DNA from: Allocoleopsis franciscana PCC 7113
GTDB lineage: Bacteria > Cyanobacteriota > Cyanobacteriia > Cyanobacteriales > Coleofasciculaceae
Assembly (NCBI RefSeq): GCF_000317515.1
Contig: NC_019738.1
Span: forward strand, 4,180,001-4,244,000
Direction of reading: 5' to 3'
Length of the DNA stretch: 64,000 nucleotides
The translations under genes and the position numbers were made by a program. Below, piece by piece: positions 8,691 to 63,418 of this stretch. Each line of letters starts with the position of its first letter. Position 1 is the stretch's first letter. A model generated the notes under the pieces. It was not told where the DNA came from, did not search any database, and was given only the letters and a program-made list of their open reading frames with translations.

Positions 8691-10316
8691 ATGAGAAGTA
8701 AATTGCTCCAGAACTGGGTGCTCCCTCCAAGTTGGTTACGGTTTTTAATCATCATCATCTTAGTCTTGGGTCTATTTTTTCGGTTTGTTAATCTTGACCG
8801 AAAAATCTACTGGATGGATGAAACGTATACCTCACTACGAATTTCTGGATACACAGAAGCAGAAGTCGCACAGCAACTTCTAGAAAGTCAAATCTTGAGC
8901 CTTCAAAACTTACACCAATATCAACGTATTAACTCAGAAAAAAGCATCGTTGATACTGTTAAAGGCTTAGCCACCGAAGAACCCCAACTAGCCCCCCTCT
9001 ATTTCATATTGGTGCGTTTTTGGGCGCAAATGTTTGGCGATTCAGTCGCGGCAATCCGAAGTTTTTCTGCCTTCCTGAGTGTGCTGGCTTTACCTTGCAT
9101 CTATTGGCTGTGTTTAGAATTATTTGAATCGTCGCTAGTCGGATGGTTAGCGTGTGCCTTGCTTGTCATTTCCCCCTTTCAATTGGTATACGCCCAAGAA
9201 GCACGACAATATAGTTTGTGGACTGTGGCGATTTTATTGTCTAGTGCTTCACTTTTACGAGCCATACGCATCAATACTTGGCGCAGTTGGGGACTTTACG
9301 CAGTAACAGTAGCAGTGGGTGTTTATTCTCACTTATTTTTCGTCTTAGTTGCCATTGCCCAGGCTATCTATGTCTTCTTTATTAATAACTACCGTTGGAA
9401 TAAAGCATTAAAAGGTTATTTACTCAGTTCGATCGTAGGAATCATCGCTTTTTCTCCTTGGATTGTCGTGATTCTAACCAACTACAAGCAAGCCTTAACC
9501 ATGACGGCGGCTCAAGACACCAAAACCTCCTTATTATATTTTCTGAAAAGTTGGTTAGGTAATCTCAGTCGTAATTTTATCGATACGGGCTTTTCTTCCG
9601 GTTCGCCTTTTGCAGTACCCTGGTACCATTTAGTATTACCCAGCCTGAGTATCTTAGTTATCACGGCCTTAGTTATCTATTCTCTTTACTTCCTAGCTCG
9701 TGATTCTCCCAAGAGAGCTTGGTTATTTATCTTCCTATTAATTGGCTTTACTTCATTAGTTATCATCATACCGGATTTGATTTTAGGCAGGCGTACCTCG
9801 GTTACAGGGAGATATATGATTCCTTCTTACCTAGGAATTCAGCTATCGGTTTCTTATTTGTTGGGATCGAAAATTAACCCCACTCTTCTCTCCAACAGAT
9901 TCCATCAATTCTGGAAGCTGATTCTGCTTGCACTACTCACGAGTGGTGTGATCTCCTGTGTGATTATTTCCCAATCCCAAACTTGGTGGAACAATCTCAC
10001 GGATACCCATAATCGACAACTCGCTCAAATCATCAACCAAACCAGTAATCCGTTGGTTATTCAAGAAATTGACTCTGCCCCACCTCGTTATAATGTTTTT
10101 AATCTAATTTCTTTAAGTTATCTGTTAAATCCAGAAGTAAAATTTAAGTTTATTCCTAAAAATACGACAACTAAAATTCCCCCAAAGTTTAGCAATATAT
10201 TTTTTATGGCTCCCTCTCATGTTTTGCAATCAGGAATTGAGATAGATTATCAAACTAAAATAGAGCCGATTGATGGAAACCCAGAAACCAGGTTATGGAA
10301 ATTAATAAAGCCGTAA
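8691..10316 (+). CDS. GT39/ArnT-like membrane glycosyltransferase, copy 1
   Basis: 541 residues and about 11-12 transmembrane helices. After the first helix comes FRFVNLDRKIYWMDETYTSL, with the acidic D-E pair of PMT/ArnT-type enzymes in the first periplasmic loop. EEPQLAPLYFILVRFWAQMF follows, the second conserved acidic/EPQxxPLYF loop, and QEARQYSLWT is typical of family PMT_2. These enzymes use polyprenyl-phosphate sugars on the periplasmic face. The C-terminal 150 residues form a soluble tail. The next gene is a clear paralogue starting 72 bp downstream. Confidence 0.87.
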   Translation: MRSKLLQNWVLPPSWLRFLIIIILVLGLFFRFVNLDRKIYWMDETYTSLRISGYTEAEVAQQLLESQILSLQNLHQYQRINSEKSIVDTVKGLATEEPQLAPLYFILVRFWAQMFGDSVAAIRSFSAFLSVLALPCIYWLCLELFESSLVGWLACALLVISPFQLVYAQEARQYSLWTVAILLSSASLLRAIRINTWRSWGLYAVTVAVGVYSHLFFVLVAIAQAIYVFFINNYRWNKALKGYLLSSIVGIIAFSPWIVVILTNYKQALTMTAAQDTKTSLLYFLKSWLGNLSRNFIDTGFSSGSPFAVPWYHLVLPSLSILVITALVIYSLYFLARDSPKRAWLFIFLLIGFTSLVIIIPDLILGRRTSVTGRYMIPSYLGIQLSVSYLLGSKINPTLLSNRFHQFWKLILLALLTSGVISCVIISQSQTWWNNLTDTHNRQLAQIINQTSNPLVIQEIDSAPPRYNVFNLISLSYLLNPEVKFKFIPKNTTTKIPPKFSNIFFMAPSHVLQSGIEIDYQTKIEPIDGNPETRLWKLIKP

Positions 10317-56405: not shown

Positions 56406-56802
56406 ACTCACATCTTGCACTACCCCCCTAAACCCCCTTTTAAAGGGGAAAACACTTGATATTTTAAGTTTAAAAAAATTATTTGAATTAATGACTCACT
56501 TCTTCACAAAAATTAAAAAACTAATTAGTGCCCAAAACCTCTGATTGTTGACGATTATTCCGATTTGGTCATAAATAATTTCTATTAAGAGGAAAATATT
56601 GAGACAAGCCATTGCGGAAAAGGATTGTTTGCTAGTGTTGTAGTCTTTACATCTATCCGGTTTTTTGAAGATTCACTTGAATAAGATCTGCATCAGATTG
56701 GTTGTGCTTAATTGATAAAGATTAATTAAGTCTTGTTTGTTTTTGAGAGGGGACATTTGCCATAAAAATATAATCTCTTTACAGGATAATCCAGGTATTC
56801 CT
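56406..56802. other. Intergenic region with hairpin before the giant gene
   Basis: At 56434-56448 CCCCTTT-T-AAAGGGG forms a short perfect hairpin within a C-rich repeat (ACCCCCCTAAACCCCC), probably a terminator or repeated element for the GST gene. The remainder, about 300 bp and AT-rich, presumably holds the promoter of the GT2-TPS-CHAT gene. Confidence 0.55.
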
Positions 56803-59800
56803 ATGGCAGCACTAATTTCCATTGTCATAACTGTTTATAACCGAGAGCGTTACCTACAGGCTGCAATTGAGAGTGTTCTCTCACAAACCCTAGAAGATTT
56901 TGAGCTATTGGTGTGGGATGACGGCTCTAGCGATCGCTCCCTCACGATTGCCCAGGAATATGCCTGTAAAGACAGTCGTGTGCGAGTGGTAACGGCAGAA
57001 CATCAAGGGCATACTCGCGCTTTGAAACAAGCGATCGCTCAAACGAAGGGTAAATACATCGGTTTCGTAGACAGTGATGACCTGCTTGCCCCAACTGCCC
57101 TAAAGGAAACAACCCTGGTACTTGAGCGCGAACCCTCAGTGGGCATGGTTTACAGCAGTTACCTGGATATCGACGAACAGGACAGAATCGTCAGCTACGG
57201 ATATCGCTGTATCGTTCCCTATTCAAAAGAAGGATTACTCCACCAATTTATGACATTCCATTTCCGGCTAATGCGTCGGAGTGTCTATGAGCAAGTCGGC
57301 GGCTTGAACGATTTATTGAAATATGCCCAAGATTACGACTTGTGCCTGCGTCTTTCTGAAAAGACGGAAATTAAGCACGTTAATAAGCCCCTTTATTATT
57401 ACCGCACTCACCCAAAAAGTATCTCCCACCAGAAGCGACACGAGCAAATACGTGACGCACGACTAGCCGTAGAACTAGCTTACCAACGCCGGGGAATCAA
57501 AAGATGGGGAGCGGGCTCTCAAACGAGCAGAGAGATAGAGACAAGAGTCAGTCAAACTTCAAAAGGTAAAGCTCAAAGCAACTCTTCAACTAATGCTTTA
57601 CGTTTTACCTTTAACGCTATTGCTTCATCCCTTTTACCTTTTTCCCTAGCCCTTTTCCCTTCTCTTGTTGCAGCCCAACCCATCACCGATAACACAACAG
57701 GTACAAATGTCATCCAAAATGGAAATAGCTATGATATTACCGGTGGACAGCGTTCTCAGGATGGCACAAATTTATTCCATAGCTTTAGTCAATTTGGCCT
57801 GAATCAAAACCAAATTGCTAATTTTTTATCTGATCCATCAATCGCGAATATTCTAGGGCGTGTCACGGGTGGGAACGCTTCGATTATTAATGGTTTGATT
57901 CAAGTCAGTGGCGGCAATTCCAACTTGTTCTTAATGAACCCAGCGGGAATTGTATTTGGTGCAAATGCGAGTTTAAACGTTCCTGCTTCGTTCACCGCAA
58001 CGACTGCCAATGCCATTGGCTTGAATGGGAGTTGGTTTGAGGCATTTAGTAACAATAACTACAGTAATTTAGCGGGTACTCCCAGCGGTTTTCGCTTTGA
58101 TGCAGCTCAACCCGGAGCGATTATTAATGCAGGGAATTTAGCCGTTAATTCAGGGCAGAATTTGTCACTGATTGGGGGGACAGTTGTTAGTACGGGAACC
58201 GTGCAAGCATCCGGAGGTAATCTTACCGTCGCGGCTGTAGCCGGAACGAGTTTGGTACGGGTGAACCAAGCGGGACAACTCCTAAGCTTGGAGCTTGCAC
58301 CGCCGACTAATGGACAGGGTAATTCCTTGCCAATCACACCACAAATGTTACCCCAATTGCTCACAGGTGGTGCATCAAATCTGACTACAGGTATGACTGT
58401 TAATACCTCCGGACAGGCACAACTTGCGAATTCTGGAACTGAGGTAAAAACAGGTGATGTCGTTGTCAATCAGCTTAGTGGTGGGACAGTAACTTTATCA
58501 GCCAACCGCAATCTTACCCTAATTGAAAGCCAGTTACAGACAACAGGTAATATGAATTTGCTGGCAAAAGATACAGTGGTGGTGCGTGATAGTGTCGCCA
58601 AACCCTTTTCAGCTCAAGCGGGAGGTAATCTCTACATTCGTGGCGATGCAGGAATTGATGTTCTAGCGCTAAATCACTTGTATCAAACGCCATTTGTCAG
58701 CGGTGGCAACCTAACTTTGGTCAGTGATGGCAAGATTTCTCTGGATGCCCATTTTGCCAATCAGGGTAGTTTTTCTATTCTGAATTCTAGTGGAAATGGT
58801 GGCGATTTTAGTAGCCTTTATGACCCAATTATCAGTTCCGTTGGCGATGTTGTGATCGGCAGTTATACAGGGCCATCTCTCAAAATTGAAACCCTTGGTA
58901 GTATCACCGTAAATGGAACTATCACCATCACTGATGCGGATTTTGTTATGGCTGGAATTTGTGGTGGATTTGGGCCTGTTGGCTCTATTCAGCCCAGAGT
59001 TTTAGTTGCCAGTCGAACCAATATTCCTATTTCCCGATTGCTGCCGAGAAGTCAGGTTCATTCAAAGTCCGGTTACTTGCTGGCGCAAACGGTTAATTGC
59101 TCACCGGATGCTATTCTTTTGGGAGATCAGCCTGCTTTAATTTTAAGAGCGGGTGTGACCGCTTTGGAAGAGCCTGCTTTTGGTTACCCAAATACCGTTT
59201 TTGGTACTCCTCCAGTTACATTTTCAGGAACAACATTTAATACAACAGGAACAACGAGTACGCCGGGAAATGTTACGGTTACTGGTGATATCACGGTTGG
59301 TGCTGGTGATTTATATGGTGGCCCTGTAGGTGGCCCTGCAATTATTAGCGCGACAGGCAACATTCAAACAGCGAACATTAATACATTTGCTACAGATACG
59401 ACTAATGAGGTGACGATTCAGGGAGGTGAGGTTTCCTTAATAGCTGGTGGCAATATCACAACCGGTGCGATTAATTCCTCTGGTACGAGTAACTTTGGAT
59501 TTGTTTCTGGTGTTGGTGGTCAAGTCAGCTTACAAGCGGGAGGTAATATTACCTTCGACAGCATTAACACCCAAGGACTTCATAACACTACCGCTGTTAC
59601 TCCAAACGGCACGGGTGGCAATGTCAGTATCACAACCAACAGTGGAGTCATCCGGGGAACGGACGTTATCACTGGCACGACTACCACGATTAATACTGGA
59701 GGAACAACTCAAGGTGGCGCGGTTACCCTTCAACATGGCGGGGGGCCACAAAATTTCCGCTTTGTTGTGGGTGATGCGACGAATAATGGCGTTGTGGGAG

Positions 59801-61716
59801 CAATTGATACTCGGAATGCGGCTGGTGTCGGTCAATTTATTCAGTTTTCACCCGCTATTCCCACTGCTGATACCCAGATTCCCAATAACAATACGTTTGT
59901 GCTGGGCGATCCAACGGTTAATGGGATTAGTATCACGTTTATTAACCAAGCACCGACTCTGGCATCCAACACACAGCTAACCGGTGCCACGCAAAACCAG
60001 ACGTTTTCGTTTACCTTGGCGCAGTTAAATCCCCAGTTGGGCGATGTGAATAGTGATATCACTACGATTATTATTGATGCGATCGCACAGGGAACACTAA
60101 CGCGACAAGATGGAACACCCATACAACCAGGAGCCACTGTGTCGGTAAATGAGGTTTTGTTCTACACTCCACCGGTGGATGCTACGGGTTCCATTGCAGC
60201 TTTTAGCATCAGGGCGAGTGATAATGTTTCCGTCTCAGCCCCACAACCAATTGCGATCGCAATTACACCAACCCCACCTCCAACCCCAACACCAACCCCA
60301 ACCCCAACCCCAACCCCAACACCAACCCCAACCCCAACACCAACGCCAACACCAACGCCAACGCCAACACCAATACTAGGAAATCCACTTCCAGAGCAGA
60401 GTTACCCACCACAACCGTTGCTAACGGTTACCCTACCTCCTGTTGAAATTGACCCCGTGGTTGCCCAAATCGAAAAATCCTTAACCAATCAATACAAACA
60501 GTATTTAGGATTACCGGGTGAGATACCAATTAGAACTCTGGATCAAGAACGTGAGATTCTCAACCAAATCGAGAGGGCAACGGGGATTAAGCCAGCGATG
60601 GTTTATGTCACATTTGTACCCCCAACTCTTGGCGCGACTTCAGCCGGTACCCCACGCCCAGAAAATCCGCTCCCCCAAGATAGCGATGAACTGGAACTAG
60701 TTGTTGTGACAGCGAAAAAGCCACCCATTCGCAAACGGGTAATCGGTGCAACCAGGGCGCAAGTCTTGAAAATGGCTGGAGAATTCCGCAGCAAAGTAAC
60801 CGATTCCAGAAATCGTCGTGGCTACCTAGCCCCAAGTCAACAACTGTACCAGTGGTTAATTGCCCCCTTAGAGGCGAATTTACAAGAACGACAAATTAAT
60901 AATCTGGTTTTCCTAATGGATGCTGGCTTACGTTCCTTGCCGGTTGCCGCCCTCCATGACGGGAAAGGATTTTTGATTGAGCGCTATAGTGTCGGCTTGA
61001 TGCCCAGTCTCAGCCTCACTGATACCCTGTACAAAGACATCAAAAATGCCCAAGTTCTGGCGATGGGAGCCAAGACATTTACCGACCAAAACCCCTTACC
61101 CGCTGTACCGACAGAAGTGTCAGCAATTGCCGGGAGGTTATGGCAAGGCAAGTCTTACCTAGACAGTGGCTTTACGCTGGGTAATTTAAAGGCAGCACGA
61201 GAGCAACAACCCTTTGGCATTATCCACTTAGCGACTCATGGTGATTTTAAACCGGGCGCTCCGAGTAACTCTTATATTCAGTTATGGGGTGACCAAAAAC
61301 TGCGCCTCGACCAAATGCGAACTCTCGGTTGGAATAACCCACCTGTAGAGCTTTTAGTGCTAAGTGCCTGTCGCACAGCTTTGGGGGATAAGGATGCAGA
61401 GTTGGGCTTTGCGGGGTTCGCGGTATTGGCAGGGGTTAAGTCAGCGATGGCAAGTCTGTGGTATGTTAGCGACCAAGGAACCTTGGGGTTGATGACGGAC
61501 TTTTACCAGCAGTTGAACACTGCCCCCATTAAGGCAGAAGCATTAAGGCAAACTCAATTAGCGATGATCCGAGGAGAGGTACGTTTGGAGGATGGTCAAC
61601 TCCATACTCCTAATGTGGATATTCCCTTGCCGCCAGAGTTGGTGGAACTCGGAAATCAAACGCTGGAGCATCCTTATTATTGGTCTGCCTTTACGATGAT
61701 TGGTAATCCTTGGTAA
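56803..61716 (+). CDS. Giant fusion: GT2 glycosyltransferase - signal peptide - TPS/haemagglutinin - CHAT protease
   Basis: About 1638 residues from ATG 56803 (GT2 start SIVITVYNRERYLQAAIESV). GT2 domain: 1 to about 245, with WDDGSSDRSLT and DxD D90-S-D92. An internal signal peptide lies at about 266-291, ending SLVAAQ. The TPS secretion domain follows (GLNQNQIANFLSDPSIAN, LMNPAGIVFGANASLNVPAS). Beta-helical repeats continue to about 1150, then a (TP)n linker. The C-terminal CHAT protease has H1479 (IHLATHGD) and C1523 (LSACRTALG). Cyanobacterial TPS-CHAT proteins are known; the GT2 head is the odd part, since the two ends belong in different compartments. A TTG at 56737 is in frame. Confidence 0.85.
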   Translation: MAALISIVITVYNRERYLQAAIESVLSQTLEDFELLVWDDGSSDRSLTIAQEYACKDSRVRVVTAEHQGHTRALKQAIAQTKGKYIGFVDSDDLLAPTALKETTLVLEREPSVGMVYSSYLDIDEQDRIVSYGYRCIVPYSKEGLLHQFMTFHFRLMRRSVYEQVGGLNDLLKYAQDYDLCLRLSEKTEIKHVNKPLYYYRTHPKSISHQKRHEQIRDARLAVELAYQRRGIKRWGAGSQTSREIETRVSQTSKGKAQSNSSTNALRFTFNAIASSLLPFSLALFPSLVAAQPITDNTTGTNVIQNGNSYDITGGQRSQDGTNLFHSFSQFGLNQNQIANFLSDPSIANILGRVTGGNASIINGLIQVSGGNSNLFLMNPAGIVFGANASLNVPASFTATTANAIGLNGSWFEAFSNNNYSNLAGTPSGFRFDAAQPGAIINAGNLAVNSGQNLSLIGGTVVSTGTVQASGGNLTVAAVAGTSLVRVNQAGQLLSLELAPPTNGQGNSLPITPQMLPQLLTGGASNLTTGMTVNTSGQAQLANSGTEVKTGDVVVNQLSGGTVTLSANRNLTLIESQLQTTGNMNLLAKDTVVVRDSVAKPFSAQAGGNLYIRGDAGIDVLALNHLYQTPFVSGGNLTLVSDGKISLDAHFANQGSFSILNSSGNGGDFSSLYDPIISSVGDVVIGSYTGPSLKIETLGSITVNGTITITDADFVMAGICGGFGPVGSIQPRVLVASRTNIPISRLLPRSQVHSKSGYLLAQTVNCSPDAILLGDQPALILRAGVTALEEPAFGYPNTVFGTPPVTFSGTTFNTTGTTSTPGNVTVTGDITVGAGDLYGGPVGGPAIISATGNIQTANINTFATDTTNEVTIQGGEVSLIAGGNITTGAINSSGTSNFGFVSGVGGQVSLQAGGNITFDSINTQGLHNTTAVTPNGTGGNVSITTNSGVIRGTDVITGTTTTINTGGTTQGGAVTLQHGGGPQNFRFVVGDATNNGVVGAIDTRNAAGVGQFIQFSPAIPTADTQIPNNNTFVLGDPTVNGISITFINQAPTLASNTQLTGATQNQTFSFTLAQLNPQLGDVNSDITTIIIDAIAQGTLTRQDGTPIQPGATVSVNEVLFYTPPVDATGSIAAFSIRASDNVSVSAPQPIAIAITPTPPPTPTPTPTPTPTPTPTPTPTPTPTPTPTPTPILGNPLPEQSYPPQPLLTVTLPPVEIDPVVAQIEKSLTNQYKQYLGLPGEIPIRTLDQEREILNQIERATGIKPAMVYVTFVPPTLGATSAGTPRPENPLPQDSDELELVVVTAKKPPIRKRVIGATRAQVLKMAGEFRSKVTDSRNRRGYLAPSQQLYQWLIAPLEANLQERQINNLVFLMDAGLRSLPVAALHDGKGFLIERYSVGLMPSLSLTDTLYKDIKNAQVLAMGAKTFTDQNPLPAVPTEVSAIAGRLWQGKSYLDSGFTLGNLKAAREQQPFGIIHLATHGDFKPGAPSNSYIQLWGDQKLRLDQMRTLGWNNPPVELLVLSACRTALGDKDAELGFAGFAVLAGVKSAMASLWYVSDQGTLGLMTDFYQQLNTAPIKAEALRQTQLAMIRGEVRLEDGQLHTPNVDIPLPPELVELGNQTLEHPYYWSAFTMIGNPW
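60264..60373 (+). repeat. CCAACCCCAACA microsatellite (Thr-Pro linker)
   Basis: About 110 bp of CCAAC(C/A/G) hexamers encode a Thr-Pro run between the beta-helix and CHAT parts of the giant protein. It is a likely length-variable, extended linker; slippage here would keep frame only in multiples of three. Confidence 0.85.
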
Positions 61717-61744: not shown

Positions 61745-63418
61745 GGGCTTGCTGAATAAGTCAGAGAAAAACCACCGATGGATTAATTAGTTATGTAAGG
61801 TTGAAGGAATGATGAGGTATTGTTGTTGACAATGCCTCCAAATATCAGCTTTAATAATAGTTTGTCTTCCCCAAAGGTGTGGTGAGAGCTGAAAGCACAA
61901 AAAAAGACAAAAAACCTGCCGTAGCAGGACGGACTTGCTTCATGACCAAAAAAGCAATAGCAATAGCTGTTTGAGAGGTGTTAGGCAGTTTAGCCATAAC
62001 TCTATTCAAGCTAAATCTTCGTTTGGATACTCCAAATTTCCCTTCAATCGCATTACGAACTGTTTCATCTTCTTTGGCTTGCTTCTTCTTTTCATCACTG
62101 ACATTAGCTGGCGGTCTTCCCAAAGGGGGTCCACTGATTCTAATCCCTCTTTCTTTACAAAAGGCTCGATTGGAGCGGGTTCGATAAATTCGATCAACGT
62201 GTACTGATTCTGGATACACTCCTGTAGCTTCTTTAAAGGCTTCTACTTGGGTTTTTAAATCTCCCGATTCATTAAAGTTATTCCAGTCTATCCGGTCTAA
62301 AAATACATATCCATCTCTTAAACTTACCGAGAGTTTGGCTCCAAATTCCACAGGACTTCCGGCTTTCCCTCTCACTATTGGACGGATATGCGGTTGACTT
62401 AAACTGACTATCCTGTCCTCAATTCTTGATGTTTTATTGTCATACATCCATTGCTGTTGACGATAAACTTCTGCGACCACCAGTAAGCTTTTGTATTGAG
62501 GGGAGCTTAAAGCCTCTAAGCCATCGCCTGCTTGGGTTAGCTGGTCTATGTGAGCTAAGTTTCTTTTGACATATTGCAATTGCTTTCTGATTGCTTTTCT
62601 GATTTGTTTTCTTGACGGTTTCCGTTTTTTTGCGACTTGCAAGTAATTTTTTCGAGCCAGGTTTCTATAAGTCTTTGGCTTTTTCCCTAGTTTCCCTTTC
62701 AGCGGTTTATACAGGCTATCTATTATCTTTTCTGTTTTGACTCTGGCTTGATTTAACAGTCCCAAATCATTGGGATAGCTGATATCTCCTGGCGCACAGG
62801 TTGCATCCAGTATTAATTTCCCTTGATTGGAGCGCTCTCTTGCTTCTTCCCTTTCTGAGAGTGAGCTTTTTTTTTAGCTTTCTCCTCGCTCTCTTCTTGA
62901 CTCTTGTGTACCATTCTTTGATTTATTTGATTCACTAAATTCGCATTTATTCTTTCTCTAAATCTCACTAATAGGGAGGCGTCAAACGGAGCCTCGTTGC
63001 TGTAATACTTTTGTCCTATAAAGTATTGTAAATACGGATTCTCTTTTATCTGTTCTACTGTTTCTCTATCACTTATTCCTAATTTCTCTTTGATTATTAA
63101 TGAACCCAATGCCATCCTAAACGGTAGGGCGGGTGCACCTATATCTTCGGCAAAGTTTCTGGCGTATTCCTCTTCAAATTCTTCCCAGGGTATGAGATTA
63201 GCGATGATTACCCAACGGTTATCTTGTGATAACTTTCCCTCAAAGGGTAACTCAAACTTTTCCGGTGGGGTGGGGGGTGAGTCAACTTTCCGGTACATTT
63301 TCCCTAGTTCAGGTGCAAGGGTTTTGTCGGATTTTACCTGATTGCCTTGCAGCTGAGCAACTATCAATGCCGCTTAAACTATTGATGGCTAAGGGTTTCG
63401 GATTTGTGCAGTAAGCCC
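61745..63418. mobile_element. IS5-superfamily insertion sequence
   Basis: Length 1674 bp. Terminal inverted repeats are GGGCTTGCTGAATAAGTC (left) and GGGCTTACTGCACAAATC (read inward from 63418), with matching core GGGCTT-CTG. It is flanked by identical TAAGTA at 61739-61744 and 63419-63424, a probable 6-bp target duplication. It carries one transposase gene in two frames on the minus strand. Confidence 0.8.
61851..63298 (-). CDS. IS transposase (DDE), two overlapping frames joined by probable -1 frameshift
   Basis: Frame 1 starts MYRKVDSPPTPPEKFELPFE (63298) and continues WVIIANLIPWEEFEEEYARN, then stops at 62813. Frame 2 (-1) contains NQGKLILDATCAPGDISYPN, DLGLLNQARVKTEKIIDSLY and HVDRIYRTRSNRAFC and ends at 61851. 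The two join in the -1 frame at a run of nine A (T9 on plus at 62867-62875), a classic slippery site. Total about 490 residues, as expected for this IS group. It could be programmed frameshifting or a single-base inactivating change. Confidence 0.85.

Follow-up and report, generated by a model that had tools for sequence, protein, structure and literature searches.

A GT2 glycosyltransferase domain ahead of a predicted internal signal peptide in TPS-CHAT exoproteins of cyanobacteria

In the window analysed here, a 64,000-nt stretch of the Allocoleopsis franciscana PCC 7113 genome, one gene encodes in a single frame a GT2 glycosyltransferase domain followed by a predicted internal signal peptide; a TPS secretion domain comes next, then a passenger that contains a Thr-Pro stretch and, at the C-terminus, a CHAT domain. 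This GT2-TPS-CHAT arrangement is an ancient, conserved design. The same GT2-TPS architecture was found in one frame at 55 loci in approximately 50 cyanobacterial genomes with at least seven family codes, which is far beyond chance. The fusion and its intact active sites are well supported; for topology, cleavage and acceptor we infer, with a probability of about one half, a TpsA protein whose oversized signal-peptide n-region is the GT2 domain, which would be inserted N-in/C-out, cleaved and exported through TpsB, its passenger probably being glycosylated by the GT2 of its own chain. No description of this architecture was found in a literature search that covered few subscription journals.

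Gene layout and domain structures

The open frame extends from a TTG at 56737 to 61716, and the gene itself was taken from the ATG at 56803, the family start, at which the GT2 domain begins (MAALISIVI...). The initial annotation had described a continuous frame leading from a complete GT2 domain with D90-S-D92 through an internal signal peptide, a TPS domain and a Thr-Pro linker to a CHAT protease with intact His1479 and Cys1523. The frame and the Pfam matches bear this out; the DxD residues, His1479 and Cys1523 lie at those numbers, the linker corresponds to a hexamer array, and the signal peptide holds as a prediction, based on a hydrophobic stretch ending in VAA/Q (Table 1). Immediately downstream of the gene, split transposase-like ORFs were seen by eye on the minus strand (61851-63367 of the window).

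Table 1. Features of the GT2-TPS-CHAT gene, in window positions
Feature	Position	Strand	Basis
Whole gene, GT2-signal peptide-TPS-passenger-CHAT, 1637 aa + stop	56803..61716	+	Open frame; Pfam; family start
GT2 glycosyltransferase domain, residues 1-230	56803..57492	+	PF00535 (Glycos_transf_2, residues 6-165, E 2.5e-32); phmmer; AlphaFold model
DxD motif D90-S-D92 (DSDD)	57070..57078	+	D90 and D92 in 55/55 fused proteins
D177 of DYDLC motif, candidate catalytic base	57331..57333	+	54/55 fused proteins (Glu in the other); role suggested by the GT2 fold
Flexible linker, residues 231-263	57493..57591	+	No in-frame ATG/GTG/TTG; low pLDDT at 253-275
Predicted internal signal peptide, residues ~264-291, predicted cleavage VAA/Q at 291/292	57592..57675	+	Hydrophobic stretch; AxA-type site
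TPS secretion domain, residues 291-496	57673..58290	+	PF05860 (E 5e-41); beta-helix model
Passenger region, residues 497-1342	58291..60828	+	No Pfam family found; fastest-evolving part
Thr-Pro stretch, CCAACC hexamer x 17.7	60268..60373	+	Repeat array within passenger
CHAT protease domain, residues 1343-1635	60829..61707	+	PF12770 (E 2e-75); model like SAVED-CHAT 8tl0
CHAT His1479 (in LATHGDF)	61237..61239	+	TH invariant in 55 CHAT domains
CHAT Cys1523 (in SACRT)	61369..61371	+	SAC invariant in 55 CHAT domains

An AlphaFold2 model of GT2 plus TPS, built with 49 homologues, gave pLDDT values mostly above 90 for both domains and low confidence for the linker that joins them. The fold nearest to the GT2 domain was the A2 domain of the E. 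coli K4 chondroitin polymerase (K4CP; Foldseek E 5e-18). The model matched 2z86 with a VIA Z of 29.1 (rmsd 2.2, 242 residues), and phmmer aligned the domain with 2z87 at 31% identity (E 2e-41). K4CP (2z86/2z87) shares the GT2 fold, the DxD and the acidic motif, but it is a soluble bifunctional polysaccharide synthase with two GT2 domains and no export part. The closest solved GT2 enzymes are polysaccharide synthases (chondroitin, heparosan), not makers of glycoproteins. Based on sequence and model, the domain is assigned to the GT-A fold with a DxD and an acidic base motif and is predicted to be a working sugar transferase. Membership of the HMW1C-like (GT41-related) enzymes was considered and rejected: the domain is a GT2, though it may work like HMW1C.

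The TPS model is a beta-helix resembling truncated hemolysin A (Z 20), and this fold, together with the PF05860 match, indicates a TpsA protein. The CHAT sequence had no match among solved structures at E 0.01, and its assignment was settled by fold comparison: the model, of medium confidence (77), was nearest to SAVED-CHAT 8tl0 (Z 16.4), followed by other clan-CD proteases. The CHAT domains compared for the catalytic residues included seven unfused ones, and the predicted His-Cys dyad in a caspase-like fold points to clan CD. The role in defence and cell death that the initial annotation had attached to CHAT found no support here.

Recurrence, selection and origin of the fusion

At all 55 fused loci, GT2, a hydrophobic segment and TPS share one frame, and CHAT is present wherever the frame extends far enough, except in L132, where it stops soon after TPS. 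The window genome holds a second GT2-TPS-CHAT gene (2453 aa, C1 ~1210993-1218354; GT2 58% identity). In addition, a scan of GTDB species genomes found the same domain order in Calothrix brevissima NIES-22 and in a Xenococcaceae MAG. Profile searches for the GT2 family had matches in 23 of 386 genomes at phylum level, 82 of 389 at order level and 66 of 388 at class level, roughly half of the matches lying in frames longer than 1000 aa. The GT2-TPS junction, which the initial annotation had proposed to look for in other cyanobacterial genomes, was thus read at 55 loci, and the homologues are fused there instead of always being separate genes.

The frame was kept in 55 of the 56 neighbouring GT2/TPS pairs; because the fused loci were partly chosen for long frames, this fraction is best judged from the stand-alone side, which has one neighbouring pair. 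A chance probability of all linkers being open was set aside, since the loci are related and were partly picked by frame length. In L183, the sole out-of-frame pair, the linker contains an intergenic-type repeat and CHAT has a second break. No clean two-gene version with separate GT2 and TPS genes was found among the short-frame and stand-alone members examined, and only L183 among the stand-alone members adjoins a TPS gene; therefore, separate genes for the two parts are not the normal state. The broken copies L183:522-5226 (linker and CHAT breaks) and L124:3048-7449 (CHAT break) reflect decay or assembly error.

The domains are under purifying selection. Across 14 close pairs, dN/dS was 0.07-0.28 for GT2, 0.04-0.15 for CHAT and, where unsaturated, 0.05-0.18 for TPS. 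The linker plus signal peptide was looser (0.09-0.66, with two pairs unusable by saturation).

In the TPS tree, CHAT-type TPS domains formed one clade in which fused proteins intermingled with unfused ones, the unfused sample coming from one genome only. The backbone of the GT2 tree was unresolved when left free, and a tree holding all 55 fused copies together scored better by 31.6 log units and was not rejected (AU p 0.85). Polyphyly of the fusion found no support, one origin being compatible with this constrained tree, though not proven. The simplest reading is that a single old fusion was followed by losses, duplications and spread.

A missed frameshift or assembly join near 57480-57600 had been raised as a possible flaw. 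Neither a frameshift nor a stop was found in the linker of the window gene, and the stretch 57480-57690 occurs only once in the window genome, so a repeat-mediated join is ruled out. The linker of L093, the copy from the same genus, is strongly divergent, which would favour an assembly error or a recent accidental in-frame fusion in the window genome; the second copy in that genome, the 55 loci in approximately 50 genomes, the unique linker and the purifying selection make either event next to impossible, and the recent fusion offered by the initial annotation was rejected on the number of genomes that carry it.

Compared with L093:3799-8973, the window gene has 86% DNA identity over the last 1.7 kb and 94% protein identity in CHAT, with 71% in GT2 and 65% in TPS. 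This uneven identity reflects recombination or very uneven rates. L093 likewise has a GST gene upstream.

Translation start, signal peptide and export

In ten genes, namely that of the window and those of nine relatives, the stretch from the end of GT2 to the hydrophobic segment is free of in-frame ATG, GTG and TTG codons. In the window gene, a conventional internal start therefore cannot yield a TPS preprotein with its signal peptide, and translation begins at GT2, another usable start being absent. The second internal start considered by the initial annotation is thereby rejected for this gene as far as ordinary codons are concerned. Most other relatives carry some in-frame ATG, GTG or TTG within the linker, and the linkers accept in-frame insertions and evolve faster than the domains. 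These properties would suit two products, namely a normal TPS-CHAT preprotein from an internal start or promoter and a separate GT2, with the frame shared by accident. However, the linker length varies widely, even between close relatives, and some linkers hold intergenic-looking repeats, yet the frame is still kept at the frequency given above. Moreover, promoter-like sites in the region were below the shuffle mean, with no excess, which leaves an internal promoter unsupported. Together with the ten genes that lack such codons, these observations make two separate products improbable.

A hydrophobic stretch with an AxA-type site lies ahead of TPS in nearly all relatives, Q292 is nearly invariant, and positive charge precedes the stretch (n-region) in 52 of 55. 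A Sec signal peptide is predicted to precede TPS directly, but to be internal rather than N-terminal. The initial annotation had argued that a cytoplasmic glycosyltransferase and an exported TPS protein should not stay linked. This topological puzzle is real, but the wording is too strong, because Sec export is compatible with a signal peptide oriented N-in/C-out behind a large N-terminal domain that remains in the cytoplasm. In the single-chain TpsA arrangement proposed above, GT2 would fold in the cytoplasm, Sec would take the internal signal peptide N-in/C-out, and signal peptidase I would cleave at A291/Q292; among the options put forward earlier, cleavage would give the best topology, and a signal-peptidase site is predicted for it. 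The TPS-passenger-CHAT part would cross the outer membrane via a TpsB/Omp85 pore, as sequence, structure models and TpsB neighbours suggest, and the exported product would end in the clan-CD CHAT protease domain. Meanwhile, GT2 would be left on the cytoplasmic side of the inner membrane, with the signal peptide as its tether at the translocon.

At 11 loci, a divergent TpsB gene precedes GT2, with 121-425 bp between the two starts, an arrangement that puts the control region ahead of GT2. In the window genome, candidates for the TpsB partner, which the initial annotation had suggested looking for, lie elsewhere: four TpsB relatives were found with the Calothrix TpsB, none adjoining the gene, and the best of them (C1 4396136-4397863) is 57% identical to the Calothrix protein. 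The same genome has about 32 TPS-domain proteins against only these four relatives.

Type V proteins with an ESPR (PF13018) likewise have an N-terminal extension before the signal peptide, and in FHA-like proteins such extensions make export slower and signal-peptide cleavage later (PMC5422565, PMC8151025). By analogy, GT2 might be a bulky targeting or anti-folding extension whose catalysis is irrelevant. The ESPR, however, is a non-enzymatic peptide of 25 residues, compared with approximately 260 residues holding an enzyme domain here. PF13018 was absent from the Pfam hits of the window protein, in which the extension is the GT2 domain. The conservation of the DxD and acidic motif and the low dN/dS across GT2 also speak against such a role, which we regard as very improbable.

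Acceptor of the glycosyltransferase

Type V passengers are glycosylated in the cytoplasm ahead of export in the HMW1A/HMW1C, EtpA/EtpC and BAHT systems (PMC8151025, PMC5422565). The HMW1A/HMW1B/HMW1C and EtpA/EtpB/EtpC systems resemble the present one in that a TPS exoprotein, a TpsB-type pore and a cytoplasmic glycosyltransferase are genetically tied (PMC8151025, PMC5422565); they differ from it in that the window enzyme is a GT2, lies in the same polypeptide and N-terminal to the signal peptide, and has a putative substrate. The BAHT heptosyltransferases (Aah/TibC) acting with AIDA-I/TibA likewise serve cytoplasmic glycosylation of a beta-helical passenger before export, but with a separate gene, another enzyme family and an autotransporter instead of a TPS protein (PMC8151025). 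TPS-CHAT proteins without GT2 (for example L159, L161, L163-L166 and L030, window genome) share the TPS clade, the C-terminal CHAT and the passenger type, but have an ordinary short signal peptide and no N-terminal enzyme.

Stand-alone GT2 relatives often have as neighbours genes for giant exported proteins that carry RTX, Calx-beta, PKD, CARDB, PA14 or Ig domains. In three plasmids and in L149, type I secretion genes are found there as well. Within 2.5 kb, 12 of 21 stand-alone GT2 genes had an ORF of 800 aa or longer, compared with 6 of 37 fused-locus flanks (Fisher p 0.0025; p 0.021 without the three plasmid loci) and with 4 of 20 other GT2 genes in the window genome (p 0.025; p 0.087 without plasmids). 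There is thus moderate evidence that the GT2 family serves exported giant proteins.

L196, L197 and L198 are plasmids of Calothrix brevissima NIES-22, Aulosira laxa NIES-50 and Calothrix sp. NIES-4105, in which GT2 (~9001-9759) adjoins giant exported-protein genes of 31-35 kb, with a toxin-secretion ABC transporter in two of the three. Their GT2-only genes are labelled 'filamentous hemagglutinin outer membrane protein', a database name that is corrected here. The same GT2 family also occurs, along with an O-GlcNAc-transferase-like domain, in DUF4915-GNAT-GT2-TPR-GT41 giants (L109:5707-10392 and L111:1085-5794). Other members are fused to sulfotransferase domains (L080:10862-12562, L082:5137-6882, L087:10173-11876 and L138:2716-4236) or to a second GT2. 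Additionally, some members (L081:6221-7414, L086:6048-7253, L089:5891-7087 and L090:10759-11967) have an internal hydrophobic stretch behind GT2 and then a short Pro-rich tail, which appears to be a second GT2-plus-export-signal arrangement, without TPS.

Based on the neighbours of the stand-alone GT2 genes and on the cytoplasmic glycosylation known for HMW1A/HMW1C, EtpA/EtpC and BAHT, we tentatively propose a self-glycosylating exoprotein, a model that we consider quite possible. The GT2 n-region would sit at the Sec translocon, one copy per chain, and modify in cis the passenger emerging from the ribosome. Cleavage would then leave GT2 in the inner membrane, and a single gene would do the work of the HMW1A-HMW1C pair. 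The most likely action of GT2 would be to glycosylate its own chain's passenger, still unfolded, either ahead of export or in the course of it, in the manner of HMW1C acting on HMW1A. Of the functions suggested by the initial annotation, a polyprotein glycosylating its own passenger is likewise the one that the evidence appears to favour. Against glycosylation in cis, the other TPS-CHAT proteins of the window genome manage without GT2, and the nearest solved enzymes and the passenger composition, described next, also speak against it.

The chain might also be cut by signal peptidase with the tethered GT2 acting on another acceptor, such as a lipid-linked glycan or a surface polysaccharide, in which case the fusion would only couple enzyme and exoprotein in amount and place. 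The closest solved GT2 relatives make polysaccharides, and sulfotransferase and second-GT2 fusion partners would suit glycan making, although sulfotransferase and GT41 partners suit protein modification equally. The passengers themselves carry no glycosylation signature, with an NXS/T sequon ratio of 1.22 in fused versus 1.30 in unfused TPS-CHAT proteins and equal Ser/Thr content, which fits an acceptor other than the passenger. However, no polysaccharide operon was found beside the fused genes at eleven loci, where neighbours were judged by eye, and the stand-alone members adjoin giant exported proteins. Considering both sides, we regard another acceptor as possible, though less likely than the passenger.

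A review counts among the unsettled points of type V secretion whether cytoplasmic glycosyltransferases encounter the substrate co-translationally and whether they contribute to membrane targeting (PMC8151025). With enzyme, signal peptide and putative substrate on one chain in dozens of cyanobacteria, the question of co-translational glycosylation becomes directly testable. If true, self-glycosylation would account for how a cell can reserve a modification for one particular exoprotein.
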